From a virus, in the IMG/VR virus record IMGVR_UViG_3300012009_000055, positions 1 to 47,265 of that record: DNA of 47,265 nucleotides, one strand, 5' to 3'. Shown piece by piece: positions 3,995 through 47,265 of the stretch (positions are counted from its first letter, which is position 1; each line of letters begins with the position of its first letter). The position numbers and the translations under genes are program-made. The notes under the pieces are model-generated. The model was not told where the DNA came from. It was given only the letters and a program-made list of their open reading frames with translations, and ran no database searches.

Positions 3995-4495
3995 ATGTAT
4001 CCAAGGAAGAGGAAGAAACTTGTAATGTCAATCGCTGTCGGAGCATTGCTTGCCCTATCCGGATCAGGGTGCGGAATCAGCGGAATCAGAGGAAACGAAA
4101 TCCTCCTTCGGATGGAGGAGATCAAAGCGCAAGAGCGGTTAGAGACTCAGAAACTGGAGGTCTTAAGGGAGCTCAGGACATTAGTCATATCTCTCCCTAA
4201 TGAAGACGGGCCGATTGCTGAGATTGAAACTGACGAGATGGGGAAAACACACGTGAAGATTTTCCCTCAAAATCAGCGAGAGAAACAAATTGATCTCATT
4301 AAGAAATTCTTGACCCTTCAGCATGAGGGGATTCAGGTGGGATCGATTCAGATTGAAGAGAAGGAGGATCTTCGAGAGGAGGTGATAAACAAAGGTTACG
4401 AATTGGCCCGCTTTGGGATAGGCGGACTGTTGATGAGAGAAATCGTAGGCCTTATCGTCCATGGGCCACACTGGGAATGGAAAGGGATGGAGTAA
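3995..4495 (+). CDS. Putative lipoprotein with a coiled-coil body
   Basis: This 166-residue protein has a basic n-region (MYPRKRKK), a hydrophobic core (MSIAVGALLALSGSG) and Cys26 in SGSGC, a near-lipobox lacking the usual Leu at -3. A helical body (LLRMEEIKAQERLETQKLEV) and a C-terminal amphipathic segment follow. If lipidated, it would face the periplasm or cell surface, where superinfection exclusion or o-spanin roles are known for phage lipoproteins. A competing frame (3982-4200) has a better ribosome site, so the start is less certain than usual. Confidence 0.6.
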   Translation: MYPRKRKKLVMSIAVGALLALSGSGCGISGIRGNEILLRMEEIKAQERLETQKLEVLRELRTLVISLPNEDGPIAEIETDEMGKTHVKIFPQNQREKQIDLIKKFLTLQHEGIQVGSIQIEEKEDLREEVINKGYELARFGIGGLLMREIVGLIVHGPHWEWKGME

Positions 4496-4722
4496 TGTTG
4501 CGATTCTATGACTCGAAAGAGGTCAGCCCAGACCCTGAGGTCGTTGAGCAGTTCAACTCTCTTAAATTGATCTGGGTTTATATGGGAGACGGTGGAGTTC
4601 AGTCTATGAGACTGGAGATTGCGCTAAATCACTTCTCCCATTTCGCTTGGTCTTACCTGGAGGAGGCTGAGGTGAAGATGTTGTCTCAATTGGATCTCAA
4701 CTCTCCAGTGAGGGAGGATTAG
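4495..4722 (+). CDS. Small hypothetical protein
   Basis: This 75-residue protein (MLRFYDSKEVSPDPEVVEQF...) starts in a TAATG overlap with the lipoprotein gene, with GGGATGGAG upstream. It has a central hydrophobic strand (LKLIWVYMG) and a helix around HFSHFAWSYLEEAE. It ends directly before the FGE-fold gene, so the three genes look co-translated. No family is recognised. Confidence 0.65.
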   Translation: MLRFYDSKEVSPDPEVVEQFNSLKLIWVYMGDGGVQSMRLEIALNHFSHFAWSYLEEAEVKMLSQLDLNSPVRED

Positions 4723-5796
4723 ATGGAGAATCGAAGATCATTAAGAGGTGGGAGCTGGACTAGCCTTGATGGATACTGTCGATCAGAGTTCTGTGGTTGG
4801 GGCTCCGCTGGTAGCAGAATGACAAATCAGGGTTTCCGAGTGGCTAAGGATAAACTTTTGGGAAGAAAGGATTTTGACATGAGAATCATTCCAGAGGGAA
4901 TTCTTGAGAGAAATGGGGAGAAGATTGTGATCCCTACGTTTAAGATGTGTAAATATCCAGTGACGAATCGGGAATACGCCATGTTCCTTGGGGATAATCC
5001 CAAGCTGAAAGAGCCGAAACTTTGGAACCTCACCGCATTTAACCACCCAGATCAACCTGTCGTCGGAGTCTCCTGGTTTGAAGCCATGGCTTATGCTAAA
5101 TGGGCGGGTGGGCGATTGCCTACCTCGAATGAATGGGAATACGCTTGTCGAGCTGGGACGACAACTCGATTTTACACAGGGGATTCGGAGGCGGATCTCG
5201 ACCGGGCTGGATGGTTTGTAGGAAATTCAGATGGGAAACTTCATCAGGTCGGTCAAAAGGAGCCCAACGCTTGGGGTCTTTATGATATGCACGGTAATGT
5301 CTGGGAGTGGTGTGATGAAGAGAAGTCCTTCGATCCCATGATTGATTATGTAACCTGTCATGGCGGGAGTTTTCGGGAGTATAATAATTTCTGCCAATCT
5401 AACTCCAGTCATAATCTCGAAGCTGATGCCGACGATATGGGGATAGGTTTCCGGGTGGCTAAGGAGAATGAGGGATGGGGAAAATATCCAAAACCTATAG
5501 AGAATTTCCCACAAAGCGGTGATCTCCCAAAGAGATTCCGTCACGAATGTCCTGATTATTACAAGCTCCCACGTCTGGCTTGGGAGTTGAACGACGTAAT
5601 CTCAGGGCTGCCATATAACAGGGCTACGGCGATTGCGTATATCTTCAGGGCTGAAGCGAAAACTGATGAAACCACTGAGCGAGGGAGATTAGAAGATGGG
5701 ATTAAGGACCTTGAGAAAGCGATTAACCATCTCGAAATGGAGCTGGAGGAAATGCGTCTACGTCGCGACGATTTGCTTTGGAATCATCTGCGTTAA
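4723..5796 (+). CDS. FGE-fold protein with an extra N-terminal FGE tail module and a DUF3310-like C-terminus
   Basis: Residues about 52-247 are a formylglycine-generating-enzyme/sulfatase-modifying-factor domain: MCKYPVTNREY, VVGVSWFEAMAYAKW, GGRLPTSNEWEYACRAG, GLYDMHGNVWEWC, then HGGSF to GFRVAK. Residues 8-42 are a second copy of that last element (RGGSW to GFRVAK, same 35-residue spacing) placed at the N-terminus. Residues about 276-341 (CPDYY, LPYNRATAIAYIFRAEAK, LEDGIKDLEKAINHLE) resemble DUF3310, seen in phage proteins often labelled nucleotide kinase. One catalytic Cys of true FGE is missing in both copies (Ser or Glu instead), so ligand binding is more likely than oxidase activity. 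The site is GAGGGAGGATTAG. No reverse transcriptase is present. Confidence 0.8.
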   Translation: MENRRSLRGGSWTSLDGYCRSEFCGWGSAGSRMTNQGFRVAKDKLLGRKDFDMRIIPEGILERNGEKIVIPTFKMCKYPVTNREYAMFLGDNPKLKEPKLWNLTAFNHPDQPVVGVSWFEAMAYAKWAGGRLPTSNEWEYACRAGTTTRFYTGDSEADLDRAGWFVGNSDGKLHQVGQKEPNAWGLYDMHGNVWEWCDEEKSFDPMIDYVTCHGGSFREYNNFCQSNSSHNLEADADDMGIGFRVAKENEGWGKYPKPIENFPQSGDLPKRFRHECPDYYKLPRLAWELNDVISGLPYNRATAIAYIFRAEAKTDETTERGRLEDGIKDLEKAINHLEMELEEMRLRRDDLLWNHLR

Positions 5797-6794: not shown

Positions 6795-6867
6795 TGATCT
6801 TGATGATGAATGAATGATGAAGGGAAAGGGGGTGATAAACTTAATTTGGTAAGAATGTAATCGGAGC

Positions 6868-6886
6868 GAATAAATTTATTTTATCG
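6868..6886. promoter_or_regulatory. Dispersed 19-bp dyad, site 2
   Basis: GAATAAATTTATTTTATCG matches the dyad consensus on the reverse strand (CGATAAAATAAATTTATTC). It lies about 70 bases downstream of the expected start of the 6766 promoter and 22 bases before ATG 6909, so a bound protein would block early elongation or initiation. Confidence 0.65.
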
Positions 6887-6908
6887 ACTTTTCAGGAGGG
6901 TTTTAATT

Positions 6909-8632: not shown

Positions 8633-9714
8633 TGAGAATGAACCTGAAAATTGATAAGATCGACACCACGAAGATGCGAGCTTTCACCCAGTGCCCGAGG
8701 ATGTATTTTTACGAATACATTTTGGGGTGGAGGCGAAGTGGATCTGTCAACCATTTACATTTTGGAGATTGCTTTCACCAGGCCCTTGAGCACCTTATGC
8801 TTAACCCATGGGATAAGAATGTCATCCATGGAGGAGAGGTTATCTCCATGTTGATGAGCAAGGGGTATGAGTTGAAAGAAGCCACCCTGATCACTGTCGA
8901 GGCTTACCCAAGGGTCTATGAGGCGTTTAAGATCTTCGAGGAAGCCTATCGGACAGATGAATATCCCGAGCAGACGGATGAGATCTACGAGCCGAAGGTC
9001 CCATGGAGGGTAGCTTTGGCGCTGATTCATTACTGCGGGTCTTATAATGACCACAGCATATATAAGCCTGTCTTACATGAAGGCTCTCCGATGATTGAGG
9101 TGTCAGGGCGATGCCTCTTAACGAAGAGATTCTCCATCGCCTTCAGGATGGACGCTGTGGTCACGGACGGGAAACAAGTCTTCGCCCTCGAGCATAAAAC
9201 GGCTTCCTTCCCGTCCCAACCAAATAAATGGGTGCTGGATCTCCAGCCTGGGACTTATTCCCATGTCATCTACTCCCAATATGGGGAGAAGCGTTATGGT
9301 GGGGTGATTATCAACGAGATTTGTTTCTCAAAGCGGACCAAGCTTGACCAGAAAAAGGACATGAAAGATCCTTTCCGACACGTCAAGCTGACTCGGCATC
9401 TCATTCACAAAGAACCCTCCCGGATGAACGTGTGGTATTGGAATATGCGGAGGAAGGTGGAATTGTTGGAGGATGAATACGCCATCCTCCATCGGGAGAT
9501 CAAGAATCCTGGGAAGATTATGGGGTCTTTCCCTATGAGGGAGATCGACTGCCATAAATTCTTTGGGCGGGAGTGTCCCTACCTCAACCTATGCACCGCA
9601 TGGGAGAACCCGTTGGAGCACACTGATCACGTCCCAAGCGGGTTCAGCATTTTCCACTGGGACCCATTGGAGAAAGAATCGAGAGTTAATCTGGAATTGG
9701 GATTGGAGGATTAA
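8629..9714 (+). CDS. PD-(D/E)XK nuclease with a Cas4/AddB-type iron-sulfur site
   Basis: The 361-residue protein has the RecB-family nuclease signature: His50 in HFGDCFHQALEH, Asp175 in AFRMDAVV, Glu188-x-Lys190 in FALEHKTA, and LQPGTY near 205-210. Cys22 (TQCPRMYF) together with Cys308, Cys316 and Cys322 (CPYLNLC) matches the four-Cys 4Fe-4S arrangement of Cas4 and AddB nucleases. Next to a RecT-like gene, it is best read as the exonuclease of a phage recombination pair that makes 3' single strands. The start overlaps the preceding stop. Confidence 0.85.
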   Translation: MMRMNLKIDKIDTTKMRAFTQCPRMYFYEYILGWRRSGSVNHLHFGDCFHQALEHLMLNPWDKNVIHGGEVISMLMSKGYELKEATLITVEAYPRVYEAFKIFEEAYRTDEYPEQTDEIYEPKVPWRVALALIHYCGSYNDHSIYKPVLHEGSPMIEVSGRCLLTKRFSIAFRMDAVVTDGKQVFALEHKTASFPSQPNKWVLDLQPGTYSHVIYSQYGEKRYGGVIINEICFSKRTKLDQKKDMKDPFRHVKLTRHLIHKEPSRMNVWYWNMRRKVELLEDEYAILHREIKNPGKIMGSFPMREIDCHKFFGRECPYLNLCTAWENPLEHTDHVPSGFSIFHWDPLEKESRVNLELGLED

Positions 9715-10734: not shown

Positions 10735-10770
10735 AAGGGTGGGGAGATATGATTTCTCCTCACCCTTTTT
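10735..10770 (+). terminator. Strong rho-independent terminator
   Basis: A 13-bp stem (10735-10747 with 10755-10767, one G-T pair) closes a 7-base loop and ends in five Ts. It ends the ligase-nuclease-annealing operon. Confidence 0.92.
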
Positions 10771-10774
10771 CAGT

Positions 10775-10793
10775 CGATAAAATAAATTTATTG
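10775..10793. promoter_or_regulatory. Dispersed 19-bp dyad, site 3
   Basis: CGATAAAATAAATTTATTG lies just after the terminator and 22 bases before ATG 10816. This is the same distance to a start codon as sites 1 and 2. No clear promoter is visible between terminator and gene, so a role in starting or blocking transcription here is possible. Confidence 0.65.
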
Positions 10794-12538: not shown

Positions 12539-13891
12539 ATGGCTATGAAATTTGAGCGCATTGCATTGGATAAGATAGACATGGCAGAACGTTTCAGATC
12601 CGACCTGGGCGATTTGACCGCCTTAACCGATGCATATAAGAAGGGGAAGATCCTCCAGCCTCCTGGGGTTAAACCCGTGGAGAATGGATACGAGATAGTC
12701 TTTGGCGGTCGTCGGTATGAGGCGGCAAAGCTCGCTGGTAGGGAGGAGATAACCTGTCGTGTCCTCGATGGGATGGATGCTTATGAGACGAGAATGGTGG
12801 AGCTGGCTGAGAATATTGACCGAAAACAGATGACTCCACTGGAGAAGATGAAACTTCAGGCAGAAATTCATCGCCTTTACCAGATAAAGTTTGGCTCGGG
12901 AGACGCGAACACACCTGGGCACACAATTAAGGACACGGCGAAAACGTTGGGGAGGACCCCGGCTTCCATTGGGAATGACCTTAAGATCTATGAGAAGGTG
13001 TCTCAACTCCCTGAGGGGATCCAAGCGACCCTGAACACCGTTGAGAAGAAGAGTGACATAGAGAAGTTTTTGCGCGACGCTGAGAGAGACGCCAAGCGCC
13101 AGATTGGGATTGACAAGGCGCGACAGGATCTCACAGCCGAGGGTCCTGGGGTCAAACAAAGATTGATTGACTCTTATCGGGTGGAGGATTTTGGAGAGGC
13201 TGAGATTGAAGGGCCTTTTCAAATTGTCGAGTTCGATCCACCTTATGCGATTGACATTATTGAGTTGAGGAAACAGAGCAGAACCTCGACATCAATCGGT
13301 GACAATTTTTACACCGACCTTGATGCTCAAACATACATAGATTGGATGCTGGAGAAACTCCACAAAATCTGGACTCTGATGGATAACGACGGATGGCTCA
13401 TCTTGTGGCAATCTCAGGAGTGGATGCCAATCTTCTTCGGCTTCAACCCTGGGAATATAGACGCCCCCAAAAAGACGGTTAAGAGATTAAAAGGTGGGCT
13501 CCTCCGGGAGGTCGGATTCAAGGTTCCTCAAACAATGGGGATGTGGGATAAGGCCAAGGGTCAGACCACCAATCCTAACTTTGTCCTCGGCTCCTCCTAT
13601 GAGTGTTTCATTTACGCTCGGAAGGGGAAGGCTGAAATCCAAAGACACGTCAACAATGTCTTCCGCCACACAGGTGGGGAAAAACTCCACACAGCTCAGC
13701 GCCCCTTGTCACTGATCCAGGATATCTTAACCGTTTTCGGCCATGAGGGTCAACGTGTCCTCTGTCCCTGCGCTGGATCAGGGATAACAATTATTGCCGC
13801 ACATCTTTGTCAGATGTCATGTGAGGCCTTCGACATTGTCCCAGAGTTTAAGGATAATTTCCATTACCTCGTTCAGAAGTATATCCAATAG
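12539..13891 (+). CDS. ParB-like domain fused to a DNA methyltransferase
   Basis: Residues 1-100 are a ParB/Srx-type N-terminal domain (FGGRRYEAAKLAGREEITCR, then ENIDRKQMTPLEK). Residues about 125-165 form a helix-turn-helix (IKDTAKTLGRTPASIGNDLK). The C-terminal half is an amino-methyltransferase: motif IV DPPY at 233-236 comes before the SAM-binding motif I PCAGSGIT at about 410-417, the order of beta-class N6-adenine or N4-cytosine enzymes. It may modify phage DNA against host restriction, with the ParB part directing it. TAGGAGACGATT is the ribosome site. Confidence 0.85.
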   Translation: MAMKFERIALDKIDMAERFRSDLGDLTALTDAYKKGKILQPPGVKPVENGYEIVFGGRRYEAAKLAGREEITCRVLDGMDAYETRMVELAENIDRKQMTPLEKMKLQAEIHRLYQIKFGSGDANTPGHTIKDTAKTLGRTPASIGNDLKIYEKVSQLPEGIQATLNTVEKKSDIEKFLRDAERDAKRQIGIDKARQDLTAEGPGVKQRLIDSYRVEDFGEAEIEGPFQIVEFDPPYAIDIIELRKQSRTSTSIGDNFYTDLDAQTYIDWMLEKLHKIWTLMDNDGWLILWQSQEWMPIFFGFNPGNIDAPKKTVKRLKGGLLREVGFKVPQTMGMWDKAKGQTTNPNFVLGSSYECFIYARKGKAEIQRHVNNVFRHTGGEKLHTAQRPLSLIQDILTVFGHEGQRVLCPCAGSGITIIAAHLCQMSCEAFDIVPEFKDNFHYLVQKYIQ

Positions 13892-13897
13892 GAGAAG

Positions 13898-14083
13898 ATG
13901 ATGGACTACAGTTTGTGTGTAAATCATTTCTGCCCATTAAGGGAGACGTGTGCAAGAGGGATACCCTCAAACCATCCTCGGCAATCTTATAATAATTTTG
14001 TCCCATCCTGGAATGGTCATTGTGAACACTGGATAAGACGGGAGGAAAAAGATGACTTACGTTCACCCGAAGGGGAGCGCTAA
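13898..14083 (+). CDS. Small Cys-rich protein
   Basis: This 61-residue protein has CVNHFCPLRETC at residues 7-18 and a further Cys in GHCEHWI, spaced for one metal ion. Similar CxxxxCPxxxxC proteins occur in many phages without a known role. AGGAGAAG precedes two consecutive ATGs. Its last 32 bases overlap the start of the polymerase gene. Confidence 0.7.
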   Translation: MMDYSLCVNHFCPLRETCARGIPSNHPRQSYNNFVPSWNGHCEHWIRREEKDDLRSPEGER

Positions 14084-16517
14084 AAAATATATAATCGTCG
14101 CCGAGCAGCCTGGTCGACAGGAGGTGAAATTTGGAGAACCTCTCGTCGGCCCTGCCGGGATGGAGCTTTGGCAGAATTGCTCCGTCGCGGGGATCAATCG
14201 GACAGATTGTTATGTCACGAATGTTGTTAAGGAATGGGGCAATCCTGTTGAGACTTACCTTAAGAACAAGAAGCTAACCCAGGAGGGGATTAAATGGCAG
14301 GGGAAGTTAAGAGATGAATTATCTCCCCTCAATCCCGACGCCATCATCATTGCCCTCGGTGGGTTGGCGTTAAAGATTTTGACTGGGAGAGATGGGATCG
14401 ACGCTTGGGCTGGGTCGTATTTAGATTCTCTCATCTCCCCACACAAGGTCATCCCGTCGATCCACCCAGCTCGGATCATCCCTCCCAAGAATCAGTATCC
14501 GTTGAAATGGGTTTTGACCCATGACCTCAAGAGAGCGAGGATGATTCAGGAGGGGACGATAGATTGGGACCAGTATGAGATCATAACCCAACCCACTTAT
14601 AAGATGATTATTGATTTCTTGGATTATGCCAAAACCGTCAACCGTTTCGCTTATGACCTCGAAGTTGCCGGCCAAGGGCTTGATAAACAAATCTCTTGCT
14701 TCTCAATCTCAATCGACCACAGTGGAATGTCGATCCCCTTAATCGAGCCAGATAAGCATGGGGGATATAATCATTATCTAACCCCGCCTCAAGAGAGCGA
14801 AGTCTTTTGTCGCGTCGCTGATTTGTTTGAGAATGTGAAAATCGAGAAGGTCGGGCAGAACCTATGCTTCGACAACCACTTCATGTTCAGACGTTATGGG
14901 ATTAGGGTCAGAAATATCCTCGACACAATGGTCGCCCAACAGATGCTTATGGGGGACCTGCCGAAGGGCTTGGATATGATCACCCATCTCTGGACAACCC
15001 TCAATTATTATAAGGGAGATGGGAAAGAGTTCATAACGGGGAAGTCTGGGAATTGGGAGAGCTTCTGGGCTTATAACGCCCTCGACTCAATCGTATGTGA
15101 GATCGCCATTGTGGGGATGGAGGAGCAGTTAGATAAGATGGATATGTGGCCTCACTATAAGGCTGTCTGCGAATCCATCGAGCCCTTGACGTTTATGCAG
15201 GAATATGGGATAAAAATTGATCTCCCTCGGATGATGACGATGGAGAAGGAGAAGAAGGAAGAGGTTAATCAATTAACCAATGAGCTTCTCTCCCACGTCA
15301 AGGAGAAAACAACAAACCCTCTCTTCAACGCCAAACTTCCCAACTCCCCAAAACAGATGCAGGAGTATTTCTGGAATGTATTGGGGGCGAAAAAATATAA
15401 GGGGAAGTCAGGGAAATTTTCCACTGATGATGATGCGCTTAAACGATATATAGCCAAAGGTTACCCAGAAGCCGGGTTGGTTAGGGATATAAGAGGCGCG
15501 AGGAAGATAGCTTCCAATTATCTAAACCCTGACAAAGTCGATCCTGACGGACGCATCCGATGCTTCTACAACCCAGCGGGGACGAGATTTTCTCGCTTAT
15601 CCTCAAGCAAGACGATATTTGGGACAGGGATGAACCTTCAAAATTGGCCTATCCCCTTACGATCCGTGATGGTCCCTGATGAAGGGTGCGTCTTTATCTC
15701 ACTCGATCTCTCTCAGGTTGAGAACAGGATCGTCGCTTATGTGGCGAGAGAGAGTAAGATGATTGAGGCCTTCGAGAATGGGCTGGATGTCCACGCCTTG
15801 ACAGGAGCCCTCATCTCTGGGAAGTCTTATGAGAAGATTAAGGAAGAAGCTGACGATGAGATCTGTGCTTCAATGGGTCATGGAAATAAGACCTGGAGAG
15901 CATGGGGGAAAAACACCAACCACGGGCTTAACTATGGATTAGGGTATAAGAAGGCAGCGATGTATTGGGAGATCATGGAGCGTGACGCAAAAATTCTGGT
16001 GGAAAAATACCACACTGTTTATCCCGGCGTCCGAATGGTCTTTCATGGATACGTTCAGCAACAACTGCGAAAGACAAGGACCATCAAGGACCTCCTGGGC
16101 CGCACCTACACCTATTTCGGCAAGCTGGATACTTATGGCTTCCAAGATATGTACCCAGCCATCTCCCAGGGGACTGTCGGGACCTTAATGACTGAAGTCC
16201 TAAACCGATGTTACGCAAATGAGCAGTTGATGGATGTCTGCAACATCTCAACCCAAACCCATGACGACCTTGCCTTCCAGTTTTTCCTGAACCGTGGGTG
16301 GGAGGCTATTGCCAAGGGTATCCTAACGATCAGATCGTATATGGAGAAGGAATTAACAACTCCCCACGGGTTGAGCTTCCAAGTCCCGGCTGATATGATC
16401 ATAGGCTTAACGTATGGGAAGAAGGATGGGATTGAGTTGAAAGGGCCTGAGTTTCCATATGACCGAAAAACGTTAGCGATGAAACTCGAAGATGTCTATT
16501 CACAACTGAAGAAGTAG
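14052..16517 (+). CDS. Family A DNA polymerase with N-terminal uracil-glycosylase-like domain
   Basis: Residues 1-165 match the uracil-DNA-glycosylase superfamily (AEQPGRQEVKFGEPLVGPAG, INRTDCYVTNVVK, ALGGLAL, SIHPAR). A DEDDy proofreading exonuclease follows: D202/E204 in YDLEV, D274 in NLCFDNH, and Y341/D345 in YNALD. The polymerase has motif A D552-x4-E557 (LDLSQVENRI), motif B K620 to YG 628-629 (GKNTNHGLNYG) and motif C HDD 737-739. There is no 5' nuclease. SPO1 polymerase is a known example of a glycosylase-like N-terminus. This is the replicative polymerase. GACGGGAGGAAAAAG precedes the start. Confidence 0.95.
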   Translation: MTYVHPKGSAKKYIIVAEQPGRQEVKFGEPLVGPAGMELWQNCSVAGINRTDCYVTNVVKEWGNPVETYLKNKKLTQEGIKWQGKLRDELSPLNPDAIIIALGGLALKILTGRDGIDAWAGSYLDSLISPHKVIPSIHPARIIPPKNQYPLKWVLTHDLKRARMIQEGTIDWDQYEIITQPTYKMIIDFLDYAKTVNRFAYDLEVAGQGLDKQISCFSISIDHSGMSIPLIEPDKHGGYNHYLTPPQESEVFCRVADLFENVKIEKVGQNLCFDNHFMFRRYGIRVRNILDTMVAQQMLMGDLPKGLDMITHLWTTLNYYKGDGKEFITGKSGNWESFWAYNALDSIVCEIAIVGMEEQLDKMDMWPHYKAVCESIEPLTFMQEYGIKIDLPRMMTMEKEKKEEVNQLTNELLSHVKEKTTNPLFNAKLPNSPKQMQEYFWNVLGAKKYKGKSGKFSTDDDALKRYIAKGYPEAGLVRDIRGARKIASNYLNPDKVDPDGRIRCFYNPAGTRFSRLSSSKTIFGTGMNLQNWPIPLRSVMVPDEGCVFISLDLSQVENRIVAYVARESKMIEAFENGLDVHALTGALISGKSYEKIKEEADDEICASMGHGNKTWRAWGKNTNHGLNYGLGYKKAAMYWEIMERDAKILVEKYHTVYPGVRMVFHGYVQQQLRKTRTIKDLLGRTYTYFGKLDTYGFQDMYPAISQGTVGTLMTEVLNRCYANEQLMDVCNISTQTHDDLAFQFFLNRGWEAIAKGILTIRSYMEKELTTPHGLSFQVPADMIIGLTYGKKDGIELKGPEFPYDRKTLAMKLEDVYSQLKK

Positions 16518-35490: not shown

Positions 35491-36708
35491 TTACGTTGTC
35501 GCGGTCACGGTCCATCCCCGGACATTTCTGAGATTGTCCAACGCCGCCAAACCATCAATGCCTGTCACTGTCCCATCAGTAGGCGCTTCGTTATTGCCTG
35601 AGATATCGAGGATTCCATCCTCAACGCCAGTTTCGTTTAGGTCGTGCAGGAAGGTATCGACTGTCAATGCGATCCAAGATAGGTCGTAAATTCGATTGTC
35701 GCCATCATTCCAGAATGTCATTGTGTTTGTGTAAGATACCGAAGTGTTGTACAAGTACAAAATCGTTAGGCGCGTCAATGCGCTAAATCCAGAAATATCA
35801 CCAGATATCGAAGTATTATACGAATTCAAGCGCGATAGGCTCGTCAATGCGCTAAATCCAGAAATATCACCTGAGACCGAAGTGTCTCCCAAGTACAATC
35901 GAGTTAGGCTCGTCAGGGCGCTAAATCCAGAAATATCACCTGAGACCGAAGTATTGTCCAAGCGCAAGTACGTTAGATTTGTCAATGCGCTAAATCCAGA
36001 AATATCACCTGAGACCGAAGTATTGTGCAAGTACAAGACCGTCAGGCTCGTCAAAGCACTGAATCCAAAAATATCACCTGAGACCGAAGTGTTGTGCAAG
36101 TGCAAGTGCGTCAGGCTCGTCAAAGCACTGAATCCAGAGACGTCACCAGATATCGAAGTGTCTCCCAAGTACAATCGAATTAGGCTCATCAAAGCACTGA
36201 ATCCAGAAATATCACCAGTTACAGATGTGTTGTACAAGCGCAAAACCGTCAGGCTCGTCAAAGCACTAAATTCAGAGATGTCACCTGAAACCGATGTGTT
36301 GTGCAAGTACAATCGAGTTAGGCTCGTCAGGGCGCTAAATCCAGAAATATCACCTGAGACCGAAGTATTGTGCAAGTACAATCGAATTAGGCTCATCAAA
36401 GCACTAAATTCAGAGATGTCACCTGAAACCGATGTGTTGTGCAAGTGCAAGACCGTTAGGCTCATCAATGCCGCCAGATCCGTACAATCGCCATCTATGC
36501 TAACGTCTTCGTTAAGATCAATTTCCGTAACATGCTCATCGCTAACCGTGATGCCATCCATCGCCCCAGCAGTATCGCCGAAATCCCAGGTGTAGTTTGC
36601 CCAGTTCGGGCCGTCAGTAGCTTCCCAGAAGGCAAGTAAGGCATCGGCTTCGTCTTTAGGGATGTCCGTCGGTGTCCATATGGATTTGCTACAATTCCTC
36701 CAAAACAT
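35491..36708 (-). CDS. Leucine-rich-repeat tail/adhesion protein
   Basis: The 405-residue protein has an LRR N-cap like that of bacterial and plant LRR proteins (EADALLAFWEATDGPNWANY, then VTEIDLNED at 60-68). Residues 81-310 are ten full 23-residue repeats of the form LTSLTRLYLHNTSVSGDISG + FSA, with a partial eleventh. A C-terminal cap ends ALDNLRNVRGWTV. At DNA level the repeats are nearly identical 69-base units, prone to gain and loss. LRR solenoids bind proteins or glycans. In a fibre cluster this is a strong candidate receptor-binding or surface-display protein. AAGGGTGATTAA precedes the start. Confidence 0.8.
   Translation of the reverse strand: MFWRNCSKSIWTPTDIPKDEADALLAFWEATDGPNWANYTWDFGDTAGAMDGITVSDEHVTEIDLNEDVSIDGDCTDLAALMSLTVLHLHNTSVSGDISEFSALMSLIRLYLHNTSVSGDISGFSALTSLTRLYLHNTSVSGDISEFSALTSLTVLRLYNTSVTGDISGFSALMSLIRLYLGDTSISGDVSGFSALTSLTHLHLHNTSVSGDIFGFSALTSLTVLYLHNTSVSGDISGFSALTNLTYLRLDNTSVSGDISGFSALTSLTRLYLGDTSVSGDISGFSALTSLSRLNSYNTSISGDISGFSALTRLTILYLYNTSVSYTNTMTFWNDGDNRIYDLSWIALTVDTFLHDLNETGVEDGILDISGNNEAPTDGTVTGIDGLAALDNLRNVRGWTVTATT
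35779..36468 (-). repeat. Ten tandem 69-bp coding repeats (LRR array)
   Basis: Ten consecutive 69-base units encode the LRR repeats, with a partial eleventh down to about 35725. Differences fall mainly at the solvent-exposed x positions (for example HN, YN, GD, DN before TSV). Such an array can expand or contract by recombination and reassort specificity. Confidence 0.85.
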
Positions 36709-41766: not shown

Positions 41767-42768
41767 TTAAGAGATTACGATAATTTCATCCCCCGGATCA
41801 CAGACGTGATCGGTGAGGGAGAAAGTTGTGGATGAAAGCCGAGTCACCTCAGTGGTCTTGTTCAGATAAACCCCGTTAAGATAAATCTTATATTTCGGAT
41901 CCGATGTGAAATCAGACCCATCGCCAAGATCCCCAGGATCTCCAGAATAATTCCACTTAACCCCGCTCGCATTTGTTTGGATCACATTCCCAGGGTTAAT
42001 CGTTCCGGTGATATCGAGATAGGTTGTCGAAGCTTCGCTCTCAGTCTGAAGCTCCTCCCAATACACTGGGCTGACATCAGGCTGACGATTTGTGGACGGT
42101 GCAATGGCCTTGTAAATCGACCCTCCATAAGCCACCATCTTATTAACGACATAAGATTTGGTCGAATCCCATTCAGCAAGAAACCAATCCTCATCCTCAA
42201 TGGGAGCCCATTGAGTCGGTGAAGATGATGGGGTGTTTCCAGTCGTTGCCGTCAGGGCAGTGTAAACCATCCCATCATAAGAGACTTGATCATCGGGGGC
42301 ATAAGTGTAACTCGCATCCCACTGCGCAAGTTTAGGTGCAGGATAAACATCCCACACTCCAGGGTTGGTGTCAGGGGGATTATTTAGATTCCCACCTGTG
42401 GTGGAGACATACATATAACCATTATATGACACCACCTGGCCGGAGTCATAAGAGATTGTCGAATCCCATTCGGCGTGAAGATCATAGTTATAGATGATGG
42501 TCGTCCCACCAGCACCTCCAACCAGTTTCTCCCACTTTGTCGGATTCGTCGGAGGCCAAAACCCAGCGTTCTCATCGACGAGAGAGCGATAAAAATCTGC
42601 CTCCATGGTTGCCGGGTCGAGACAAAGGACGACACTCTGACTCCGATACTCCAGATCTCCACGGTACACCCCTAACTGAAGGCGAAAATGGGTGTCATAA
42701 AGTGTCGTCCGCTGTCTTGTGTCATGACCCTCATCCGAGGCATCGTGAATGAATCTTGCGTTAGACAT
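41767..42768 (-). CDS. Tail protein with three CBM5/12-like modules
   Basis: The 333-residue protein has an N-terminal anchor and then three consecutive ~45-residue modules of the chitin-binding CBM5/12 type: EWDSTISYDSGQVVSYNGYM, QWDASYTYAPDDQVSYDGMV and EWDSTKSYVVNKMVAYGGSI, each ending P-x3-P-x-W. The C-terminal ~85 residues form a strand-rich domain (KYKIYLNGVYLNKTTEVTRL). The modules bind polysaccharides, so this is likely to attach to the host surface. It overlaps the previous gene as TAATG. Confidence 0.75.
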   Translation of the reverse strand: MSNARFIHDASDEGHDTRQRTTLYDTHFRLQLGVYRGDLEYRSQSVVLCLDPATMEADFYRSLVDENAGFWPPTNPTKWEKLVGGAGGTTIIYNYDLHAEWDSTISYDSGQVVSYNGYMYVSTTGGNLNNPPDTNPGVWDVYPAPKLAQWDASYTYAPDDQVSYDGMVYTALTATTGNTPSSSPTQWAPIEDEDWFLAEWDSTKSYVVNKMVAYGGSIYKAIAPSTNRQPDVSPVYWEELQTESEASTTYLDITGTINPGNVIQTNASGVKWNYSGDPGDLGDGSDFTSDPKYKIYLNGVYLNKTTEVTRLSSTTFSLTDHVCDPGDEIIVIS

Positions 42769-43170: not shown

Positions 43171-44823
43171 TTAGATTAGATAATGTTGCTCAGGATAACT
43201 CTCATTCTTCAACATGGCAAAGTCATCCTCATCGTCCATAAAGACATCAGACACGGGCTCGAAGTTTATCCCCGAACTATCCATGACATAAATAACCTGG
43301 GATAAGGCATCGATGACGTCAACGAGAGCTCCATTTGGGAAGGTCATCAATTGGCTCTCAAGTTTCGCCGAATTATTCGGGTTGTGATAGAAATAACCTT
43401 GGTGATAGAGAGGGGAGAGTTGGAGGATCCGATCCTCCTTATTCCCTCTCGCATGAACCTCGAGCAATCGAACGTTCATGTTGAATCGCCGAGCTAAGGC
43501 CTCGATGGGACCTTTGATGTACTCGTGGAGAGAGGTAGTCTCATAAGCCACGAGGTTTGCCTTAAATTGTGTTGCTGAGAAAAAGGCCCGTCTTAGGAAT
43601 TCATCAGGTTTAAACTTCCCAGCAATCACATCCCGGACAAAGATTTTGTGAGCTTTCGTGTGAACCGAAACGCAAACAGCTGCCGAGTCATCAGCCGTCT
43701 CTTTCGTCGTTTTCGCCGGATCCAACAAAACCATGGTGAAAAGCTCGGAGACTGGGATGACAGGAGCTGGGTTGGAGGGCTCAATTCCCGTGAGATTCAC
43801 CTCACGTCTCTCGGAGACATCTTGCCTTTTCCTAACCGCTAAAGTCTCCTTCGCCCGAGGGGAGAGATAAAAGGGTCTTAAATGCGAGCCCTCTTCAGCG
43901 AAATAGTTGAAAGATTCGGGAGGAAAAGGTTGCCCTTCTGTCGACATGGGGAGGTTTCGATACTCACGGAAGAAGGTGTCTAATTGCCCAGCAGATTTAT
44001 GAGCCTCATATTCCTTCTTTATCTCCTCTGCGTCCATATATTCAGGGGCGGTTGGTTGAAGATTGTCATCACAGGCTTCGAGGGTGACCGACATCCAATC
44101 CTCTGAATCCATATTCCGACGAAGGAGAGAGTCTTCGTGTTTCAAGGTGTCGATATACACCATGCGATAATCTTTCTCATACCGGGAGATGCATTTTGTC
44201 GGCTCCGAGAAAAACCACGTCCGAATCTGCTCCCTCTGTTCCTTCGACCGGAGGAGCTTTCGATCCTCAAGATCGTCGAAAATGATAAGATCGGGACGTC
44301 TTGAACGCCATAAGATCCCTCTGACCTGCTGGCCATATCCACGAGGGAGGACAAGGGTGTTTCCAAAAGCTACCCAAGCGGAGCGGGAGAATTCATCATC
44401 CAACCCCGTTAGCTCCTTCGTGTCGATATCCCCGACGCGGATCGACCCAAACACCTTCCTCACCATGGTGTTGGCGAGGAGCTCACGTTTTAACGACTCG
44501 GTCTGAAGCTCAGCGTGAGTGGAACTGTAAGAGATGAAGACGACAAATCGGGTCTCACGGAAGAGAATCTTCCTGGCGAGATATCCATAAAGGACGATTG
44601 AGGTTTTCCCAAATCCTCGAGGGGCTGCGATATTAACTTTCTTAGCGAGGGAGTCGAGAGCGGTGCAGACTTTGAGATGAAGATTAGGAGAGAATGGGGC
44701 AGGGAAGATTTCAGGGAAAAAGACTTTCGCCATAACATCCGAGCGAATCATGGATAATGAGATGAGGCGATCAAGTTCCGCATCCCCACTCAATAAATTA
44801 TTTTTATCGAGATTATCCCTCAT
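43171..44823 (-). CDS. Terminase large subunit
   Basis: The 550-residue packaging motor has Walker A APRGFGKTS at residues 67-75 and Walker B DLIIFDDLED at 178-187, with acidic residues at the end. A C-terminal RNase H-like nuclease follows: D368 in VLLDPAKTT, an acidic pair (DDSA) about ten residues on, E in AYETTSLHEY and D near 508 in VDVIDAL. It cuts and translocates phage DNA through the portal. It overlaps the small subunit gene by eleven bases. Confidence 0.92.
   Translation of the reverse strand: MRDNLDKNNLLSGDAELDRLISLSMIRSDVMAKVFFPEIFPAPFSPNLHLKVCTALDSLAKKVNIAAPRGFGKTSIVLYGYLARKILFRETRFVVFISYSSTHAELQTESLKRELLANTMVRKVFGSIRVGDIDTKELTGLDDEFSRSAWVAFGNTLVLPRGYGQQVRGILWRSRRPDLIIFDDLEDRKLLRSKEQREQIRTWFFSEPTKCISRYEKDYRMVYIDTLKHEDSLLRRNMDSEDWMSVTLEACDDNLQPTAPEYMDAEEIKKEYEAHKSAGQLDTFFREYRNLPMSTEGQPFPPESFNYFAEEGSHLRPFYLSPRAKETLAVRKRQDVSERREVNLTGIEPSNPAPVIPVSELFTMVLLDPAKTTKETADDSAAVCVSVHTKAHKIFVRDVIAGKFKPDEFLRRAFFSATQFKANLVAYETTSLHEYIKGPIEALARRFNMNVRLLEVHARGNKEDRILQLSPLYHQGYFYHNPNNSAKLESQLMTFPNGALVDVIDALSQVIYVMDSSGINFEPVSDVFMDDEDDFAMLKNESYPEQHYLI
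44791..44809. promoter_or_regulatory. Dispersed 19-bp dyad, site 7
   Basis: CAATAAATTATTTTTATCG lies within the first codons of the large terminase gene, where it encodes LDKNNLL. The site could regulate late transcription or be a packaging-linked signal. Only its similarity to the other sites is seen. Confidence 0.55.
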
Positions 44824-46736: not shown

Positions 46737-46860
46737 GATAACCTTTTAACGAAGGGGAGCCTTCTCAATGAAAGAGGGGAAATCGGATCCGAAGGGGTCA
46801 ATTCTCGGTTGCGGAACTATAAAGCGAGGCGCTCGGAGGGTTCCTTAAAAATGGATGAGA

Positions 46861-46879
46861 CAATAAATTTATTTTATTG
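46861..46879. promoter_or_regulatory. Dispersed 19-bp dyad, site 8
   Basis: CAATAAATTTATTTTATTG matches the consensus in both halves and is nearly a perfect palindrome. It lies in non-coding DNA between the last plus-arm gene before the junction and the iterons. Confidence 0.65.
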
Positions 46880-47008
46880 ACTTGATTCATTTAAGGTTAA
46901 TCATTTGGTCTCCTCTTTGAGGAATGGGATTTGGTCTCGGATGAGTCAATTATTTAAGGAAATAAAGCCTTAATCGGATGAGCAATCAATCGTTTTAGCA
47001 TAAGGTAT

Positions 47009-47226: not shown

Positions 47227-47265
47227 AGGTTTAAAAAAAAAAAAAAGAAGGAAATAAAAAACTAA
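47227..47265. repeat. Terminal direct repeat, right copy
   Basis: These 39 bases match the first 38 of the window apart from one extra A in the poly-A run (14 versus 13). They close the genome on itself or mark terminal redundancy. Confidence 0.9.

Follow-up and report, generated by a model that had tools for sequence, protein, structure and literature searches.

Architecture of the gene at 4723-5796

The window, that is the whole 47,265-nt stretch of viral DNA analyzed here, carries on its forward strand an open reading frame (4723-5796) for a 357-residue protein, in which an FGE C-terminal module is followed by a complete FGE-fold domain and a DUF3310-like tail. PF03781 detects a complete FGE-sulfatase domain between residues 66 and 247 (E=6e-45; 154.2 bits against a curated cut-off of 23.3, which makes the protein a member of the family); taken together with the AlphaFold model, the FGE-fold domain spans aa 52-250 (4876-5472). 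The supernumerary module (aa 3-42, 4729-4848) was delineated by profiles and alignment. Taken alone, the N-terminal piece matches positions 213-255 of PF03781 (E=4e-4), with FGE homology traceable back to residue ~3 (RRSLRGGSW, a feature seen likewise in locus L146). The second module stands in its native place (aa 213-247, 5359-5463), according to both the alignment and the AlphaFold model, where it is seated in the fold. A module HMM built in this analysis gives 42.9 bits for the N-terminal copy and 36.5 bits for the C-terminal one, and residues 8-42 and 213-247 align without a gap, with 12 of 35 residues identical. The ungapped alignment and the profiles thus confirm the first-pass annotation on the presence, in one reading frame, of two FGE C-terminal modules with identical internal spacing, and the three-part order that it described holds as well. 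The protein is neither a circularly permuted FGE, the module being present at both ends, nor a tandem fusion of two complete domains, the first copy being only about 40 residues long.

Catalytic FGE has two active-site cysteines, Cys336 and Cys341 in the human enzyme. The Cys341 equivalent is kept in both modules, while the Cys336 equivalent is absent from both, its position being occupied by a serine in the N-terminal module (alignment) and by a glutamate in the C-terminal one (register read from the sequence). The protein therefore lacks the cysteine pair of a catalytic FGE, and the earlier statement that one catalytic cysteine is missing from each copy is borne out.

The last part of the protein (aa 277-348, 5551-5766) is helical in the AlphaFold model and had been likened to DUF3310. 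The tail alone matches PHROG 'nucleotide kinase' families (2.6e-5), and its pairwise score against a genuine DUF3310 protein, from the L006 phage (see below), is 75, the maximum reached by shuffled sequences being 53.5 (n=2000). By contrast, the Pfam model PF11753 finds nothing in the tail, even at E=10, and its curated cut-off is not reached. As judged from these comparisons, the tail is DUF3310-like but too divergent for the Pfam model.

Translation start

An assembly or annotation artefact could have placed the N-terminal module in the protein wrongly, a reading for which one can cite the presence of an internal methionine, Met53, directly ahead of the FGE domain. However, the Shine-Dalgarno sequence of Met1 (GGGAGG, 4712-4717) has a duplex energy of -11.4 kcal/mol, similar to that of other genes of the same phage and stronger than all background positions in the gene, whereas Met53 has a ribosome-binding energy of -5.4, which is the background level. 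A strong site at Met1 together with a background-level one at Met53 indicates that the N-terminal piece is very likely a genuine part of the 357-residue protein. Upstream, an 81-residue open reading frame in the same frame (4477-4722, forward strand) ends with a TAG that abuts Met1. Read-through of this codon into Met1 was considered and rejected, as TAG is an ordinary stop in this phage, used by 9 of its 27 forward genes, and this also speaks against the artefact, which I regard as highly improbable. A second reason against read-through is that the 81-residue frame has no match to FGE or to any other family, and on the same grounds this frame was rejected as an FGE remnant.

Relationship between the two modules

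The local alignment score of the two modules is 47, compared with 20.4 ± 4.0 (maximum 39, n=2000) for shuffled sequences. At the DNA level the two 105-base segments (4744-4848 and 5359-5463) are 48% identical overall, and the similarity between the modules is mostly confined to the last six codons: their 3' ends (4831-4853 and 5446-5468) are nearly the same DNA (GGTTTCCGaGTGGCTAAGGa, 21 of 23 bases identical), and five of the six GFRVAK codons are identical between the copies (P ~0.016 by codon usage). This ending was found in none of the other viral FGE reading frames tabulated. The near-identity of the 3' DNA and the common GFRVAK suggest that the copies have a recent common history at that end. 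When the N-terminal module was compared with 134 other FGE ends, the mean score was 56 and the best 102, in contrast to the value of 47 obtained with its own partner. These alignments show the N-terminal module to be a canonical FGE end and place the drift in its C-terminal partner, which stands in the native position (HGGSF for RGGSW, CQS for CRS). The description of the N-terminal piece as a spare copy of the protein's own C-terminus is hence correct as to its being an FGE end, but not as to its closest resemblance, which is to other FGEs. A recent origin of the N-terminal module from a cyanophage FGE, considered on account of a common CRSEFC, is unsupported: the codons of that stretch mostly differ, although the base-by-base comparison was offset by one codon.

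Genome context

Synteny links the window to Desulfofustis phage LS06-2018-MD01, with homologous genes for ligase, nuclease, ParB-like protein, PolA, primase and terminase. Two composite proteins of the window have homologues in the Desulfofustis phage: a ParB-like/DNA-methyltransferase fusion (12539-13891, forward strand) and a DNA polymerase of family A that starts with a uracil-DNA-glycosylase domain (14052-16517, forward strand). The early region to the left of the ligase is unrelated between the two, and no FGE gene was found in the Desulfofustis phage; since this syntenic phage is devoid of it, the FGE gene is variable accessory cargo. The gene at 4723-5796 is an early gene and belongs to the accessory set of a tailed phage, whose host I infer to be desulfobacterial. 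Among 258 genomes of the class to which Desulfoprunum belongs, there were three strong FGE matches and none with the N-terminal module.

Other features of the window deserve mention. The virion gene region contains a leucine-rich-repeat protein (LRR_4, 1e-36) encoded by ten head-to-tail 69-base repeats (35666-36586, reverse strand), and the gene at 41767-42768 (reverse strand) encodes a tail-fibre-like protein in which three carbohydrate-binding modules of type CBM5/12 were detected. An AT-rich near-palindrome, AATAAA..TTTATTTTAT, recurs at 2658-2687, 6864-6890, 10768-10791, 44787-44813 and 46854-46883 and may serve the phage as a regulatory site. The two ends of the window carry direct repeats of 35 bases that are almost the same (4-38 and 47231-47265), which suggests that the genome is nearly complete.

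Relatives of the gene and FGE arrays elsewhere

To assess how common the arrangement is, 190 FGE reading frames that contain both a core and a module were inspected; their sources were phages, viral contigs and 80 bacterial loci. A lone module ahead of the core occurs in one of them, namely 4723-5796, in keeping with the rarity claimed at the outset. A tree built from the cores places the protein with the phage FGEs L007, L008 and L016, near that of L006 (IMG/VR 3300037508_001223), its best-scoring viral relative. Within positions 3448-3753 of L006 three C-terminal modules follow one another in tandem, with two 30-base junctions that differ at one base at most and divergent interiors; a scan of viral contigs for this tandem-module DNA pattern returned only L006/L089 and unrelated proteins. 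Because L006 has three of them, modules of this group do multiply.

FGE genes also occur in arrays, and Microcystis phages carry such arrays of short FGE genes. Two to five FGE reading frames are present in 26 of 83 loci, and some bacteria have whole FGE domains fused in frame (four modules in L158, two in L156). FGE ends without a core of their own are found close to intact FGE genes in Ma-LMM01 and in L045, L061 and L063. A search for the same order elsewhere had been suggested, and it was answered in part: tblastn against MaMV-DL02 gives one match that runs from the end of 46L through all of 45L, so that Microcystis phages do show an FGE end followed by a whole FGE, but from two neighboring genes. 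No near DNA relative was found in the phage collection. Single-protein scans of viral contigs, with the product of 4723-5796, the terminase or the polymerase as query, returned no match and hence no orthologous locus for comparison.

Structure prediction

The full-length AlphaFold model was computed from a 55-row alignment in which the N-terminal piece is covered by no row. In this model pLDDT is mostly >90 over aa 52-250, aa 213-247 sit in the native slot (pLDDT ~94), the helical tail has values of 84-89, and aa 1-47 are unstructured (pLDDT <50). The disorder of aa 1-47 is weak evidence, since alignment rows are absent there. The nearest solved structures to the predicted fold are formylglycine-generating enzymes. 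A second model, restricted to aa 1-212 so that aa 213-247 were removed, was computed from an alignment that includes natural tandem FGE proteins. Here the N-terminal module gains a native-like strand-helix-strand (E5-8, H16-19, E36-38), with pLDDT of ~53-60 for aa 1-30 and 72-79 for aa 31-50, and the best model has a pTM of 0.80. One of the five models of this run stood out; its alignment differs from that of the full-length run, so that the two do not form a controlled pair, and docking was judged from pLDDT and secondary structure alone. The proposal that the first module docks in place of the second is thus not borne out by the full-length model, but the native-like elements seen once aa 213-247 are removed leave room for it. 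The two outcomes that the first-pass annotation had named as counting against its reading were each observed in part: disorder of the first module in the full-length model, and an FGE end supplied by a separate upstream gene in Microcystis phages. The modeling raises the possibility that the N-terminal module may fill the empty slot when the C-terminal one is absent.

Origin and role of the N-terminal module

How did the protein acquire a second FGE end? I consider it probable, though by no means assured, that the N-terminal module descends from the 3' end of an FGE gene, since vanished, that lay upstream and became joined in frame to the present one, and that the product is probably a non-catalytic binding protein. 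According to this scenario, a second FGE gene would once have stood upstream; an inferred deletion would have taken most of it and joined its last ~40 codons in frame to the survivor, the fusion would have gained a new strong start, and the module would serve at most as an accessory or alternative tip. This origin is the likeliest by analogy, because FGE gene arrays and leftover FGE ends exist in other phages. What argues against it is that conservation is higher in the N-terminal module than in the C-terminal one, contrary to what one expects of a decaying remnant. The recent history that the copies seem to have in common at their 3' ends also weighs against it. The ancestor with a full upstream gene has not been seen, as no close relative of the gene or of the phage was found. 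Alternatively, a segmental duplication within the gene may have set a copy of the C-terminal module at the N-terminus, after which the interiors diverged and the ends stayed alike. The ungapped spacing, the 3' identity of 21 bases in 23 with GFRVAK in both copies, and the L006 tandem, whose junctions and interiors show just this contrast, speak for such an event. On the other hand, the N-terminal module is closer to other FGE ends than to its partner, the L006 copies are in tandem at the C-terminus with none at the N-terminus, and no further viral contig fitted the tandem pattern, so that I hold duplication to be rather unlikely. Whichever way it arose, the arrangement is rare, while its component parts are already known.

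The first-pass annotation pointed to a binding protein with two alternative tips. Taken as a working device, this would mean that both modules are functional and compete for one slot, the protein switching between its normal form and a circular permutation that offers another binding surface. In favor of this, diversity-generating retroelements (DGRs) vary the C-terminal FGE module, which makes the ligand contacts in proteins of this fold, the N-terminal copy is the closer of the two to the family consensus, and it adopts native-like elements upon in silico deletion of the C-terminal module. Against this, the full-length model seats the C-terminal module and leaves the N-terminal one disordered, and the favorable result comes from the best of five aa 1-212 models, with an alignment unlike the full-length one. 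A working alternative tip is accordingly a distinctly doubtful reading. Equally doubtful is its extension, in which two interchangeable tips would share one FGE core, either being presentable, and the protein would form with L006 a class that multiplies the tip as a cassette; if true, it would provide a built-in alternative to DGR-type diversification. The multiplication of the module within one chain, at the N-terminus of 4723-5796 and threefold at the C-terminus of L006, does suggest that phages treat this ligand-contact segment as a movable cassette.

The question of a DGR signature here and in Microcystis phages

The fact that the module corresponds to the DGR variable segment also raises the question of whether a reverse transcriptase rewrites, or once rewrote, the two copies as variable regions. 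C or T is slightly more frequent as the last base of module codons than of codons elsewhere in the gene (34/50, p=0.014). However, no PF00078 reverse transcriptase match and, in any of the six frames, no other module-like sequence are found in the window, and the adenine signature is weak in 4723-5796 while it is clear in Microcystis phages. Although a reverse transcriptase encoded elsewhere in the host is conceivable, the gene is most improbably a DGR target. A literal DGR template, TGGAACAACAATCCNAATAACTG, was found in no viral contig.

The Microcystis-phage genes provide a separate observation, and a stronger one than that on 4723-5796. Among those with core DNA of 90-97% identity, module interiors average 67% and go down to 48%, and module 3' ends are ~88% identical on average; in the most frequent length class, the third base is a fixed C or T in most of the variable codons. 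A DGR with its reverse transcriptase, two FGE targets and a template repeat lies in L207, a part of one Microcystis genome (G291:C2:18000-36000, reverse strand); in the reverse complement, the template repeat occupies 9084-9178. Variable regions that match this template were located in phage FGE genes at L018:3436, L038:754, L037:3475, L206:3391 (MaMV-DC) and L002:2504 and 3119 (MaMV-DL02). Over 26 distinct phage variable regions, 56% of the template adenines and 15% of the other bases differ (odds ratio 7.5; p=5e-83, a nominal value since the regions are partly non-independent), and in the best regions 16 of 28 adenines but 0-1 of 47 other bases are changed. RVT_1 was detected in none of ten phage-side records besides the window, among which the complete genome of MaMV-DL02 was the one isolate covered. 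A reverse transcriptase of Microcystis genome G272 was set aside, as it looks like that of a group II intron. Comparison of these sequences makes it probable that the phage FGE genes are targets of a host DGR in trans or were captured after diversification. Remote DGR targets within cyanobacterial genomes are known (PMC7517822), and keyword searches of one paper library found no phage-borne target of a host DGR. The result bears on whether phages let a host DGR diversify phage genes.

Function and comparison with known systems

Phage FGE genes are little understood and are often labeled 'kinase'. Because the Cys336 equivalent is missing, a binding role is preferred to catalysis, and the product of 4723-5796 is probably a non-catalytic binding protein with an FGE fold, of the C-type-lectin type. 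The earlier prediction of a binding protein instead of an enzyme is upheld to this extent. The central domain has in common with the PF03781/SUMF1 formylglycine-generating enzyme its profile and predicted fold; it differs in the Cys336 position, and the phage protein has in addition the N-terminal module and the DUF3310-like tail. That tail, which is helical, follows the motif order of DUF3310 and PHROG 236 'nucleotide kinase', PD(H/Y)Y...YI.RA..K...DL.KA...LE; it differs in that it escapes PF11753 and is joined to an FGE domain.

A parallel is found in L006, which likewise has supernumerary C-terminal modules within one reading frame, alike at their ends and divergent in their interiors. Its extra modules, however, trail the domain, whereas that of 4723-5796 precedes it, and L006 has no DUF3310-like tail. 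The tandem FGEs of Microcystis phages (MaMV-DL02 45L-47L, Ma-LMM01 gp037; PHROG 18508) are short, minimal-length phage FGE proteins that present along the DNA an FGE end, a core and an end, in the same order as 4723-5796. There, by contrast, the pieces belong to separate complete genes, and the modules bear a DGR signature that those of 4723-5796 lack.

The highest-scoring match in the bacterial genome scan was a NACHT-FGE protein (44%). The likeliest task of the phage protein would be to bind a host protein early in infection, and one may speculate that it does so as a decoy or inhibitor of host FGE-type sensor domains; if phage FGEs do act on such sensors, a new connection would be added to the conflict between phage and host. 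FGE domains of STAND and VMAP conflict systems are proposed C-type-lectin sensors (PMC10907252, PMC7159879), and these proteins, NACHT-FGE included, share their fold with the phage protein; they are, however, multi-domain conflict proteins of the host, whereas in the phage protein the fold is accompanied by neither an NTPase nor an effector domain.
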